From Winogradskyella eckloniae (GTDB lineage: Bacteria; Bacteroidota; Bacteroidia; Flavobacteriales; Flavobacteriaceae): a stretch of 64,000 nucleotides of DNA. Shown here in pieces: positions 7,771 through 12,486 of this stretch. The position numbers and the translations under genes were made by a program. Location: NCBI RefSeq assembly GCF_013249045.1, contig NZ_JABRWP010000004.1:248001-312000 (forward strand), in the 5' to 3' direction. Every line of letters begins with the position of its first letter. The stretch's first letter is position 1. A model generated the notes under the pieces. That model made no database searches. It was not told the DNA's origin and was given only the letters and a program-made list of their open reading frames with translations.

Positions 7771-9318
7771 ATGATAAATATTCTCTGGGTTGACGATGAA
7801 ATCGATTTATTAAAACCACATATTATTTTTTTAGAGCAAAAAGGATACGCGGTTACAAAATGCCAAAGTGGTACAGAAGCCTTAGAAATAATCAACGATA
7901 CTAATTTTGATATTGTCTTTTTAGATGAGAATATGCCTGGACTTACAGGATTAGAAACTTTGAATGAAATCAAAGAACGACGCGCCAACTTACCTATTGT
8001 GATGATCACTAAAAGTGAAGAGGAATACATTATGGAAGAAGCTATTGGGAATAAAATAGCTGATTACTTAATTAAACCTGTAAATCCCAATCAGATTTTA
8101 TTGAGTTTAAAAAAGAATTTAGACCATTCTCGATTAGTTTCGGAGAAAACAACCTCTAACTATCAACAAGAGTTTAGAAAAATTGCAATGGATTTATCTA
8201 TGGTAAATTCTTATGAAGAATGGATTGAATTATACCAAAAGCTTATTTATTGGGAACTGCAATTAGAAGGTATAGAAGATGTTGGGATGACAGACATCTT
8301 AGAATCTCAAAAAACAGAAGCGAACAATCAGTTTGGCAAATTTATTGAAAAAAATTACGAAGATTGGTTTCAACCCAATACTGATGCACCTGTAATGTCA
8401 CACACCTTATTTAAAGATAAAGTAGTCCCAGAACTGAGTGATAAACAACCTACAATTTTAGTCGTTATAGACAATTTGCGTTATGACCAATGGAAGGCAT
8501 TTGAACCTATTGTAAATAATTATTATAAAAAAGCTTCAGAATTAGCATTTTACAGCATATTACCAACAGCTACACAATATGCAAGAAACGCTATTTTCTC
8601 TGGTTTAATGCCTGCAGATATGGAAAGCTTATTTCCGCAATATTGGAAAAACGATACTGATGAAGGTGGTAAAAACATGCACGAAGGCGATTTTCTCAGA
8701 GAACAATTAAAACGATTAGGGCTAAATAATTTAAAGCATACCTATCACAAAATCACCAATTTAAAAGCTGGTAAGAAATTAGTAGAAAATTTTAGATCTT
8801 TAAAAGAGCATGATCTTAATGTCATTGTTTACAATTTTGTTGATATGCTATCTCATTCTAAAACAGAAATGGAAGTTGTTAAAGAATTGGCATCAAACGA
8901 TAAAGCGTATCGATCACTAACCGTAAGCTGGTTTAAAAATTCGCCGTTATTAGAGATGATTCAATTATCTCAGCAGTTAGGTTTTAAATTAATCTTAACT
9001 ACAGATCATGGTACAATAAATGTAAAAGCACCTTCAAAAGTTATTGGTGATAGAGACACCAGTTTAAATCTACGCTATAAAACTGGAAGAAGCTTAACGT
9101 ATCAAGACAAAGATGTATTGGCTGTTAAAAATCCTAAATCCATTCATTTACCGTCCTTAACCATGAGCAGTTCTTTTATTTTTGCTAAAGGTGATATGTT
9201 TTTAGCATATCCTAATAACTTTAATCATTATGTGAGCTACTACAGAAACACGTATCAACATGGTGGTGTTTCATTAGAGGAAATGATAATTCCTTTTGTG
9301 GTATTAGATCCAAAATAG
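7771..9318 (+). CDS. porX: PorX-type response regulator with PglZ phosphodiesterase domain
   Basis: This 515-residue cytosolic protein has a receiver domain (residues 1-120) with the acidic pair Asp8/Asp9, phospho-acceptor Asp52 in FLDENMPG, Thr80 and Lys102. A linker leads to a PglZ domain of the alkaline phosphatase superfamily (about 205-515), with Asp234 in VVIDNLR, a candidate nucleophile Thr in LPTATQYARN (266/268) and the metal motif TTDHG. This arrangement defines PorX, which with the sensor PorY controls the type IX secretion system in Bacteroidota; the PglZ domain is reported to cleave phosphodiesters. No porY is in the window. The giant protein at 15.2-22.7 kb has a T9SS C-terminal domain, so it is a plausible client of this pathway. 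Confidence 0.92.
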   Translation: MINILWVDDEIDLLKPHIIFLEQKGYAVTKCQSGTEALEIINDTNFDIVFLDENMPGLTGLETLNEIKERRANLPIVMITKSEEEYIMEEAIGNKIADYLIKPVNPNQILLSLKKNLDHSRLVSEKTTSNYQQEFRKIAMDLSMVNSYEEWIELYQKLIYWELQLEGIEDVGMTDILESQKTEANNQFGKFIEKNYEDWFQPNTDAPVMSHTLFKDKVVPELSDKQPTILVVIDNLRYDQWKAFEPIVNNYYKKASELAFYSILPTATQYARNAIFSGLMPADMESLFPQYWKNDTDEGGKNMHEGDFLREQLKRLGLNNLKHTYHKITNLKAGKKLVENFRSLKEHDLNVIVYNFVDMLSHSKTEMEVVKELASNDKAYRSLTVSWFKNSPLLEMIQLSQQLGFKLILTTDHGTINVKAPSKVIGDRDTSLNLRYKTGRSLTYQDKDVLAVKNPKSIHLPSLTMSSSFIFAKGDMFLAYPNNFNHYVSYYRNTYQHGGVSLEEMIIPFVVLDPK

Positions 9319-9490: not shown

Positions 9491-9955
9491 GTGAAAACTA
9501 TAGAGTTTACATACCATTTAAAAGATATTGATGCTATTGCTGCAAGTGTTTTGGAGCATTTAGATGCTAAGACTATATTATTTAATGGTCAAATGGGCGC
9601 TGGTAAAACAACATTTATTAATGCCATGTTAAAAGCAATGCAAAGTAATGATGTGGCAACCAGTCCTACTTTTTCTATAGTAAATGAGTATACAATACCA
9701 AATGATAAAGTCTATCATTTTGATTTCTATAGGATAAATTCTATAGATGAAGCATATAACTTTGGTATTGAAGAATATCTTAATAGTAATTTTTGGTTAT
9801 TTATGGAATGGCCAGAACGCATAGACGATTTAATTCCGTTAGACTCACAAACCATTACTATCACTAGTATTGATGAAAATAAAAGATCCCTCAAATTAAC
9901 TATAAACGATAAACATTTAACCCAAAAGTTAGCCATGAAAACAGTAAATCTATAA
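9491..9955 (+). CDS. tsaE: tRNA t6A synthesis ATPase TsaE
   Basis: This 154-residue P-loop ATPase drives the TsaB-TsaD complex that makes threonylcarbamoyl-adenosine at position 37 of ANN-decoding tRNAs. The Walker A motif is GQMGAGKTTF at residues 33-42, followed by ATSPTFSIVNEY, typical of the family, and the FMEWPERI segment (about 103-110). The start is GTG at 9491; no ATG lies before the conserved core. It follows porX by 172 bases, so a separate promoter is possible. Confidence 0.95.
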   Translation: MKTIEFTYHLKDIDAIAASVLEHLDAKTILFNGQMGAGKTTFINAMLKAMQSNDVATSPTFSIVNEYTIPNDKVYHFDFYRINSIDEAYNFGIEEYLNSNFWLFMEWPERIDDLIPLDSQTITITSIDENKRSLKLTINDKHLTQKLAMKTVNL

Positions 9956-10050: not shown

Positions 10051-10082
10051 TTTGTAAGCACCTTATAATGCTTTTATTTTTG
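10051..10082 (+). promoter_or_regulatory. Bacteroidota-type promoter with both boxes
   Basis: TTTG at 10051-10054 and TATTTTTG at 10075-10082 are separated by 20 bases. This fits the primary sigma consensus TTTG-N19-20-TAnnTTTG. Transcription should begin near 10089, giving a leader of about 22 bases for the small ORF at 10112. It is the most complete promoter match in the window. Confidence 0.65.
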
Positions 10083-10111: not shown

Positions 10112-10258
10112 ATGAAAACTAAAAGAAACCTAGTACTTGCAATTGCAATTTTCGGCGGAATGTTATTCACTGTTCAAGCTACAAACATTATTGATTTAGA
10201 TGGACAAGCTACAACCAAAATCGAAAAAAAGAAAAGAAAACTCGTTAAATGGGGATAA
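10112..10258 (+). CDS. Small exported peptide (48 residues)
   Basis: This short ORF starts at an ATG 29 bases after a strong promoter. It encodes a textbook signal peptide: basic start MKTKRN, hydrophobic core LVLAIAIFGGMLFT, and a likely cleavage after VQA (residue 23). The mature part would be about 25 residues and very basic at its end (KIEKKKRKLVKWG). The last 59 bases overlap the next gene in the +1 frame. Function is unknown. Alternatively, an extra A in the A7 run near 10213 could have split a single longer gene, since removing one A would fuse the two frames. Confidence 0.6.
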   Translation: MKTKRNLVLAIAIFGGMLFTVQATNIIDLDGQATTKIEKKKRKLVKWG

Positions 10259-10751
10259 TAATTTAAGTAGAACAGCAATATTAGGAACTATTATTGCAAC
10301 ATTTATTAGTTCTACTCCATTATTATATTTATTACACGAAAGTGTTCCAGACACAGCTGTTTGGGACACTTTTTTGGGTACATACGAAAGCGGTTTTTGG
10401 GAATCTGCTCAATATGCCATGTGGGTTTACACAGGCAAAATAGTGCCTCTTATTTTAATGTTTATTTGGTTTTTTACGTGTAAACATTGGTGGTATCATG
10501 CTCTACTTGTCCCAATTGTTATGTATTCATTTCAAATAATTACCAGTTATCATGCCGAACTTAAAAATACAGACGAGAATCAAATTTTAATATTATTACC
10601 CGTTTTAGTCATTGTAGTGCCTTCTATATATTTAATTAGAGCAAAAATGTTTAACAAAATAAACATGTCTAATAAAACCCTAGAAGAAATGGAAGCTGAG
10701 TTTATGATAAGACCAAAAGGGGTTTGGGGCAAGGTTAAACAGTATTTTTAA
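10200..10751 (+). CDS. Four-helix integral membrane protein of unknown function
   Basis: This 183-residue protein begins with a basic cytosolic segment (QPKSKKRKENSLNG) and has about four membrane spans: TAILGTIIATFISS (25-48), VPLILMFIWFF (76-95), YHALLVPIVMYSFQII (98-116) and ILILLPVLVIVVPSIYLI (128-146). A soluble tail (EEMEAEFMIRPKGVWGKVKQYF) follows. No known enzyme motif is visible. The ATG at 10200 is the only good start before the first span and lies inside the small ORF at 10112, so the two may be translationally coupled or were once one gene. Confidence 0.75.
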   Translation: MDKLQPKSKKRKENSLNGDNNLSRTAILGTIIATFISSTPLLYLLHESVPDTAVWDTFLGTYESGFWESAQYAMWVYTGKIVPLILMFIWFFTCKHWWYHALLVPIVMYSFQIITSYHAELKNTDENQILILLPVLVIVVPSIYLIRAKMFNKINMSNKTLEEMEAEFMIRPKGVWGKVKQYF

Positions 10752-10863: not shown

Positions 10864-12063
10864 ATGAGTAAATCTTTATCACCATTTACCAAAGCCCAAT
10901 TATTACCTCAAGAAGAAACCTTAGAAATCCTTAAACAGAAAGGCGAACTTTTTATTGGCATACCAAAAGAAGCTCATTTTCAAGAACGCCGTGTGTGTTT
11001 AACACCAGATGCCGTTTCTGCATTAACCGCAAATGGCCATCGTGTACTATTTGAATCTGGAGCTGGTGAAGGTGCTAACTTTAAAGATAAAAATTATAGT
11101 GAAGCTGGTGCAGAAGTAACCAAAGATACTGCAAAGGTGTACTCCTGCCCTATTATACTAAAAGTAGAACCACCATCCTTAGATGAGATTAAACTCATAA
11201 ATCCACAAACATTATTAATTTCCGCGCTTCAGATTAAAACACAGAACAAATCGTATTTTGAAGCTTTGGCAAAAAAGCGCATTACTGCTTTAGCTTTTGA
11301 GTATATTAAAGATGATGATGGCGCTTATCCTGCCGTAAGCTCATTAAGTGAAATTGCCGGAACAGCTTCCATACTAATTGCATCAGAATTACTATCTAAT
11401 GTTAATGGTGGTAATGGCTTAATGATGGGTAATATCAATGGAGTTCCACCTACAGAAGTTGTCATATTAGGAGCTGGTACTGTAGGCGAATTTGCAGCGC
11501 GATCTGCCATAGGATTAGGAGCTAATATTAAAGTTTTTGATAGCTCTATTACTAGATTACGACGCCTTCAAAATAATTTAGGACGGACTATTTATACATC
11601 TACTATGCAACCAAAAAATCTCATTAAGGCATTAAAACGTTGTGATGTCGCAATTGGAGCTGTTAGAGGCGTAAATCGTGCACCAATAGTAATTACTGAA
11701 AGTATGCTAAGTCATATGAAAAATGGATCTGTTGTCATTGATGTGAGTATAGATATGGGAGGATGTTTTGAAACCAGTGAAGTTACTACGCATGACAAAC
11801 CGACCTTTGAATACAATGGTGTTATACATTATTGTGTACCTAATATTCCTGCACGCTATTCTAGAACCGCATCTGTGTCTATTAGTAATATATTTACACC
11901 TTATTTGTTGGAGATTGGCGAGCATGGTGGCATAGAAAATGCTTTAAGATTTGATAGAGGTTTAAAAAATGGGTTGTACTTTTACCACGGCATATTAACT
12001 AACAAATCTGTAGCAGAATGGTTTGGTTTAGATTATAATGATGCCAATTTATTAATCTTTTAA
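10864..12063 (+). CDS. ald: Alanine dehydrogenase
   Basis: This 399-residue NAD-dependent enzyme interconverts alanine and pyruvate plus ammonia. The N-terminal substrate domain shows IGIPKEAHFQERRVCLTP (residues about 32-50), with the lysine and arginine of the active site. The NAD-binding Rossmann fold has VILGAGTVGEFAARSAIGLGA (about 200-220). VIDVSIDMGGCFETS (about 292-306) matches the family. The N-terminus is about 30 residues longer than in classical Ald, usual for Bacteroidota. It likely balances nitrogen and carbon flow. Confidence 0.93.
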   Translation: MSKSLSPFTKAQLLPQEETLEILKQKGELFIGIPKEAHFQERRVCLTPDAVSALTANGHRVLFESGAGEGANFKDKNYSEAGAEVTKDTAKVYSCPIILKVEPPSLDEIKLINPQTLLISALQIKTQNKSYFEALAKKRITALAFEYIKDDDGAYPAVSSLSEIAGTASILIASELLSNVNGGNGLMMGNINGVPPTEVVILGAGTVGEFAARSAIGLGANIKVFDSSITRLRRLQNNLGRTIYTSTMQPKNLIKALKRCDVAIGAVRGVNRAPIVITESMLSHMKNGSVVIDVSIDMGGCFETSEVTTHDKPTFEYNGVIHYCVPNIPARYSRTASVSISNIFTPYLLEIGEHGGIENALRFDRGLKNGLYFYHGILTNKSVAEWFGLDYNDANLLIF

Positions 12064-12108: not shown

Positions 12109-12486
12109 ATGAAATTTATAAATCGATTAGGCTATTATCTTGGCGGATTTGCAATAGGTCTAATATTATTAATGTTTTTTTTAAACGGTAAAGAGGCGTC
12201 TTGTGATTATAGTCCTAATGCGAGAACCGTAAAAAATATCAGTTCAAAATCAATACATTATACCAATGATGCATCCATCTTCATAGGTGAGAATCATTTA
12301 GACTCCACTACAATTGTTAATTTAATAAAATTTGGAAACGTTAATTTTTCAAAAAGTAAAACCAAATTAGATTCTTGTAAAGTCTATTTTATAGATAATA
12401 CCTATAAAGAGCGTGAAATGGAGTTGAAAATAAAAAATTGTGATTCAATAGCGACAATCCTCGATATTAAGTATACAAACATCTAA
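12109..12486 (+). CDS. Small membrane-anchored protein (DUF4258-like)
   Basis: This 125-residue protein has one N-terminal membrane anchor (YYLGGFAIGLILLMFFL, about residues 9-25), then a periplasmic domain with CDYSPNARTVKNI and three cysteines (32, 89 and 110). It resembles flavobacterial proteins annotated with DUF4258 that follow alanine dehydrogenase, but this link is from memory of the family, not shown here. It starts 45 bases after ald and is probably cotranscribed. No function can be assigned. Confidence 0.7.
   Translation: MKFINRLGYYLGGFAIGLILLMFFLNGKEASCDYSPNARTVKNISSKSIHYTNDASIFIGENHLDSTTIVNLIKFGNVNFSKSKTKLDSCKVYFIDNTYKEREMELKIKNCDSIATILDIKYTNI

Follow-up and report, generated by a model that had tools for sequence, protein, structure and literature searches.

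Does a short overlap between two reading frames in the window (the whole analysed stretch of DNA, 64,000 nucleotides) reflect two genes that share bases, one gene split by an extra A, or two frames joined by frameshifting, and what would the products do? A sequence-only reading had left these three possibilities side by side. The upstream frame (10112-10258, plus strand) encodes a putative exported peptide precursor of 48 residues and is kept in relatives. Its predicted sequence is MKTKRNLVLAIAIFGGMLFTVQA followed by TNIIDLDGQATTKIEKKKRKLVKWG up to the stop codon, with the likely cut site between the two parts placed by eye; the signal peptide (10112-10180, plus strand) would end at VQA, before T, as judged by eye from the sequence. 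The downstream frame (10200-10751, plus strand) encodes a membrane protein of 183 residues from an unnamed family, with four long predicted helices. The two frames share 59 nt (10200-10258, plus strand), in which the membrane frame is the +1 frame of the peptide frame and approximately the first 20 residues of the membrane protein are encoded. A run of seven A (10224-10230) and a run of four A (10232-10235) lie inside the overlap. The small frame with its apparent signal peptide, the 59-base overlap in the +1 frame and both A-runs were present as the sequence-only reading had described them, and the small frame with its signal peptide recurred in relatives.

Both frames were found unchanged in 30 of 30 loci fetched from the same genus, the window's own counted (35 genomes of the genus matched), and in 28 of 28 loci first fetched from other genera. 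In the closest named relative, the membrane protein was 96% identical to that of the window. The idea that a sequencing error or indel split one gene drew on the homopolymer inside the overlap. However, the same two frames were shared by 58 of the 58 loci first examined (window included), single-contig genomes among them, and no relative examined had a single continuous frame; we give this explanation practically no chance. Programmed frameshifting, which would fuse the two frames into one product, was suggested by the run of seven A in the window. However, the run was not conserved: the longest A-run in the overlap was seven in only 12 of 133 overlapping loci, six in 28 and two to five in 93, and a scan of A-runs in these 133 loci found no conserved slippery site. 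Further, relatives in which the genes do not overlap carry them in any of the three frames, and frameshifting is therefore very improbable.

An overlap in the +1 frame with a small exported frame was present in 133 of 148 primary membrane-protein frames, a set from which identical proteins had been dropped. The overlap was exactly 59 nt in 97 of the 133; this search was restricted to the +1 frame, so that overlap lengths differing by threes are given by construction. In locus comparisons open to either frame, no convincing overlap in the other frame was found. A chance open reading frame was rejected, since both frames recur in same-genus and other-genus loci and 133 of 148 overlap. In some relatives the peptide gene stands apart from the membrane gene with a free frame relation (for example L130, L145, L146, L149, L151, L154, L200, L235, L236, L237, L246, L247, L252 and L254), and there a gap of 10 to about 190 nt separates the end of the peptide from the open membrane frame. 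The C-terminal motif of the peptide was kept without the overlap (e.g., L130, L145, L146, L149, L154, L235 and L236). In Bizionia algoritergicola (L130), the end of the peptide lies 145 nt before the open membrane frame, and its relatives overlap.

An in-frame TAG (10197-10199, plus strand) lies directly 5' of the membrane-protein ATG and falls in the +1 reading of the peptide codons for LDG, so that the membrane frame has no possible upstream extension. The first 30 codons of the membrane frame contained no ATG, GTG or TTG except the ATG at 10200. Provided that the first helix is intact and a usual start codon is used, the predicted membrane protein is one that starts inside the peptide gene. 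Because the membrane ATG is located 56 nt before the peptide stop codon, a simple stop-and-restart coupling of translation looks unlikely.

Codon choice in the overlap differed from that in the rest of the peptide gene. A stop in the membrane frame would arise from none of 409 Leu, Ile or Val codons in the overlap, versus 249 of 1014 in the part that codes for the peptide only, and codons of the form xTA made up 24 of 409 versus 432 of 1014; the selection of overlapping loci accounts for part of the zero, yet 133 of 148 loci overlap. When similar loci were dropped (51 non-redundant of 133 loci), synonymous recoding of the peptide left the membrane frame open with a mean probability of 0.32, and synonymous recoding of the membrane protein left the peptide open to its own stop with a mean probability of 0.023. 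Among 64 of the 97 loci with a 59-nt overlap, conservation was 42.7 bits for the peptide versus 28.1 in the recoding null (sd 0.48) and 35.3 bits for the membrane protein versus 29.7 (sd 0.44); shared ancestry inflates both excesses and confounds that of the membrane frame. Kept frames together with constraint on both support true dual coding, the first of the three possibilities, in which two real genes would share 59 nt in different frames. The overlap is a candidate for clean, widely conserved bacterial dual coding, with natural controls in the relatives whose genes lie apart.

The sequence-only reading had also assigned a strong promoter to the peptide gene. A promoter-like site, TTTG-N20-TATTTTTG, is located at 10051-10082 (plus strand), about 30 nt before the peptide ATG. 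Promoters of the Bacteroidetes type have the consensus TTTG, a spacer and TAnnTTTG. Of 94 non-redundant overlap loci, 15 had the form TTTG-N17..23-TAnnTTTG within 150 nt upstream, where shuffling gave a mean of 0.5, and 23 had a looser form (mean of 1.4 on shuffling), which in 21 of them lay 28-32 nt before the ATG; neither form occurred within the 150 nt searched in the other 71. With the strict form in only 15 of the 94 loci, a strong promoter in the window is plausible and no more. The signal peptide of the overlapping lineages, window 10112-10180 included, was almost invariant across many genera (about MKTKKYVIAIAIFGGMLFxAQA), which is unusual for a cleaved signal.

Beyond what the sequence-only reading had seen, the peptide belongs to a family-wide set of putative exported precursors, some with tandem C-terminal units. 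By a sequence pattern filter, the export signal carried a lipobox in 51 of 114 loci and resembled a signal-peptidase-I type in the rest. Surface lipoproteins of Bacteroidetes carry an export signal (LES) of a polar residue or K and then an acidic pair at +2 to +6 after the Cys, as described in PMC5080379, and the lipoprotein-type precursors here likewise have an acidic patch after the lipid-bearing Cys. However, the acidic fraction in the 51 sequences was 0.88 at +8 and 0.76 at +9 and at most 0.39 at +2 to +6; with its peak at +8/+9 the patch was rejected as a surface signal of that kind. The C-terminus of the peptides was variable, with a loose core [VI][DE][KR] that was often followed by K-I and P-x-x-G. 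The pattern [VIML][DEN][KRP] fitted 92 of 114 peptides (shuffled mean 28, maximum 39), and 70 of 114 terminated in Gly.

In 16 precursors the C-terminal unit was repeated two to six times, 14 of them found by a scan that excluded loci L180-L195 and L205-L234, and two by eye (L256 and L263). Scan hits in L095 and L265 (antisense frames), L112, L133 and L175 (masked letters) were dropped by eye as false. The precursor of L237, which starts at 2517 on the minus strand, had six tandem IDKFQKPPKHG units that were identical in protein over the stretch and differed at synonymous sites; ald lay downstream of it, and tsaE was not detected within the fetched stretch. Four copies were present in L095, L200 and L247, three in L055, L196, L246, L254, L263 and L265 (in L246 and L254 one of the three has diverged), and two in L150, L154, L165, L235, L236 and L256. 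The window holds one such unit, KIEKKKRKLVKWG (10217-10255, plus strand), recognised by eye as the counterpart of the repeated one. Among the repeat copies of 12 non-overlapping precursors, pS was 0.599 (191.6/320.1) and pN 0.060 (72.4/1197.9), pair counts that are not independent and that left out the diverged units of L246 and L254 as well as L256 and L263. In the overlapping multi-copy precursors L055 and L095, the synonymous values were 0.43 and 0.31 versus 0.03 for nonsynonymous sites, and in L196 three 13-residue copies had one and the same protein sequence, with synonymous differences close to saturation. The repeated unit looks like a selected functional product, because its copies differ at 0.60 of synonymous versus 0.06 of nonsynonymous sites; for single-copy precursors such as that of the window, we infer the same status from the multi-copy ones. 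In L176, two tandem lipoprotein-type peptide genes, identical in the part shown, stand before one membrane gene (upstream of 3288).

The membrane protein was present in 275 of 397 sampled Flavobacteriaceae genomes and in 176 of 237 genera. A draw across the phylum, in which at most eight candidates per genome were scored, gave matches in 11 of 395 genomes, every one of them Flavobacteriaceae. Among 23 genomes from other families of the order, one had a clear match (G038, where two stretches of a 333-aa frame matched) and two had weak matches, one with internal stops. In another family of the order, L198 (5103-6743) holds a relative of the membrane protein, in a 333-aa frame, near an opposite-strand protein that by eye resembles a helix-turn-helix protein; tsaE, ald and a peptide gene were not detected at L198.

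Scans of the membrane protein and the peptides against Pfam and NCBIfam gave only weak matches below the curated cut-offs, and a sequence search of the PDB gave no match for the membrane protein. A structure model built from 53 sequences (pLDDT 72, pTM 0.57; an earlier model from 14 sequences had pLDDT 57) showed four long helices, with a short hairpin (residues 54-63) separating the first from the second. If the lysine-rich N-terminus lies inside, the hairpin would face the periplasm. Foldseek returned no PDB chain at E<=0.001 for this model. VIA-align at its best (Z 7.9; 82 residues at rmsd 1.9) placed model residues 73-156 on 9cwt_k of complex I, which is within the range of common helical arrangements. 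No fold match pointed to a function, and the silence of fold searches proves nothing. An exported peptide with a membrane partner is a general plan that has analogues, while none of the named families in the searched libraries corresponds to this one.

The pair occupies a usual place in the chromosome. Upstream in the window and on the same strand are a gene (7771-9318, plus strand), which we take to be a PorX-type response regulator, and tsaE (9491-9955, plus strand; PF02367, E 1.1e-33); an alanine dehydrogenase/PNT-type gene, ald, lies downstream (10864-12063, plus strand; PF01262 and PF05222). Counterparts were found on the same strand in 143 (not detected in 26), 160 and 154 of 169 loci, respectively; because several genomes occur in duplicate (L001-L030, L060-L139) and some of the loci are nearly identical, these counts, like those for pairing and the accessory module below, are not independent. 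After ald, the window has a frame of 125 aa (12109-12486) without a Pfam match. It recurs downstream on the same strand in 153 of 169 loci, and its predicted product is a conserved unnamed protein. The genes that made up the conserved neighbourhood (porX type, tsaE, ald and the small unnamed gene) included no protease, kinase or dedicated exporter, and no RiPP modifying enzyme was among the conserved neighbours in the 169 loci.

The small frame was paired closely with the primary membrane gene. With a strict signal pattern, a small exported frame stood beside 127 of 176 primary membrane frames versus none of 43 opposite-strand paralogues. The numbers were 170 of 176 versus 3 of 43 with a wider pattern and 173 of 176 versus 5 of 43 when no signal pattern was required, and the paralogue hits (3 and 5 of 43) look spurious by eye. 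Of the six primary copies missed by the wider filter, L150, L167 and L174 do have a small frame, L175 by eye has one further upstream and L075 an apparently broken one, and none was seen in L198, from another family. Two or three peptide-membrane pairs formed tandem arrays in L147, L156, L158, L177 and L241. Among the 114 of 169 loci with full TsaE, full Ald and a peptide that passed the filter, the distance between peptide C-termini correlated with that between membrane proteins (partial r 0.32 given TsaE and Ald), versus 0.05 with TsaE and 0.01 with Ald, each given the others; shared ancestry leaves these correlations no valid p-value. That the peptide C-terminus tracks the membrane protein beyond its neighbours is suggestive only.

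Several known systems resemble parts of this arrangement. The yeast alpha-factor type is a secreted pheromone precursor with tandem copies, and here too a signal peptide precedes one to several near-identical units under amino-acid constraint. By contrast, the system here is bacterial and Gram-negative, a membrane-protein partner adjoins, release is putative, and by eye the precursors lack a fixed processing site. Peptide signalling is well known in Gram-positive bacteria, where cassettes encode signalling peptides and the enterococcal sex pheromones are derived from lipoproteins. In those systems, as here, a membrane protein adjoins a small precursor that is exported or is a lipoprotein. However, no double-glycine leader was seen here, the mapped neighbourhood had no exporter or kinase, and the system was found in Flavobacteriaceae, the membrane protein having one clear match elsewhere in the order. 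Cyanobactins are made from multi-core RiPP precursors, which likewise have several core units each; unlike them, the precursors here have a Sec signal or lipobox where a RiPP leader would stand, and the conserved neighbourhood is without a modifying enzyme. The secretion-monitor leaders SecM, MifM and VemP are, as here, exported small frames directly upstream of a membrane gene, whereas the C-terminus here is variable and repeatable, and the small frame can also stand away from the membrane gene, whatever the frame relation. No published description of such a peptide and membrane system was found in open-licence PMC, from which most subscription papers are missing, and the terms 'small peptide', 'overlapping' and 'pheromone' were absent from the main text of PMC7440613.

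For the role of the pair, the reading that we prefer is that the exported peptide unit is a ligand and the membrane protein its sensor or processor, to which we give an even chance. If translated, the precursor would leave by the Sec route, as a signal-peptidase-I type in the window and as a lipoprotein type in other lineages. Cleavage would yield a functional product consisting of the C-terminal unit of about 10-16 residues, often [VI][DE][KR]-x-x-[IV] and then P-x-x-G or another ending, with one unit in the window and two to six in some relatives. The second gene would give a four-helix membrane protein dedicated to the peptide. The mature peptide may then act outside the cytoplasm as a ligand, in contact with the membrane protein that would sense or process it. 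Against this stand the conserved neighbourhood, as mapped, with its lack of a protease, kinase or dedicated exporter, and the 22 of 114 peptides that lack the core pattern [VIML][DEN][KRP]. Further, 51 of 114 precursors have a predicted lipid anchor, and a freely diffusing signal is therefore not favoured unless a further cut is made. Its main rival, possible but doubtful, holds that the peptide is not set free as a signal but remains attached to the membrane protein as a small subunit or regulator, exported or anchored by lipid, with tandem units as extra binding sites. The lipobox in 51 of 114 loci, the partial correlation of 0.32 and the presence of the peptide gene with nearly every primary membrane gene, the two- and three-pair arrays included, are what a bound subunit would predict. 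By contrast, most tandem copies are near-identical in amino acids, which would go beyond the usual loose multivalent motifs, and the copy number ranges from one to six among relatives.

Two other explanations appear improbable. A small, often cationic exported peptide that adjoins a small membrane protein might be a toxin or bacteriocin with its immunity protein. However, bacteriocin loci are patchy and mobile, whereas this pair occurs in 176 of 237 genera at a fixed chromosomal place (tsaE in 160 and ald in 154 of 169 loci), and the Pfam and NCBIfam matches of the scanned peptides included no bacteriocin family. The small frame might instead be a regulatory leader, that is, a device that acts through the nascent chain or through coupled translation to control expression of the membrane protein. 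Such a leader would fit the upstream position, the near-fixed overlap length (59 nt in 97 of 133) and an exported N-terminus like that of the secretion monitors SecM, MifM and VemP, but the peptide is kept even when it lies 10 to about 190 nt before the membrane frame and in any frame, its tandem repeats are under amino-acid constraint, and its variable C-terminus has no fixed arrest motif; it too has a poor claim. As the main role, a nascent-chain leader was rejected because of the separated genes in any frame and the constrained tandem repeats.

A bolder proposal, which we hold somewhat less likely than not, is that most Flavobacteriaceae genera carry a peptide-hormone-like system. In it, a four-helix membrane protein would serve a Sec-exported, sometimes multi-copy precursor as its own receptor or processor; in many lineages the two would be encoded partly in two frames of the same DNA, and some lineages would add accessory membrane paralogues and a helix-turn-helix-like protein that possibly relays the signal to transcription. 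To our knowledge, peptide signalling is hardly known in Bacteroidota. We know of no earlier multi-copy prohormone-style signal from Gram-negative bacteria; if the proposal is true, this system would be the first. The well-kept tandem units of some lineages, the dedicated partner and the constant place, shared by some three quarters of the genera sampled, make it a direct, testable candidate.

Among 165 loci of at least 6 kb, the accessory module was represented by a paralogue of the membrane protein together with a small helix-turn-helix-like protein in 22, by a paralogue alone in 6 and by the helix-turn-helix-like protein alone in 1; 136 had neither. The small protein was assigned to the helix-turn-helix type by eye, and Pfam (a 75-residue part) and NCBIfam gave no match above the cut-off. 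In such accessory clusters (for example L204:4787-6398, L196:3832-6783, L154, L044 and L057), opposite-strand paralogues of one or two domains are located near this protein of about 120 aa, which carries the motif SARQFD.SIG..NGY.
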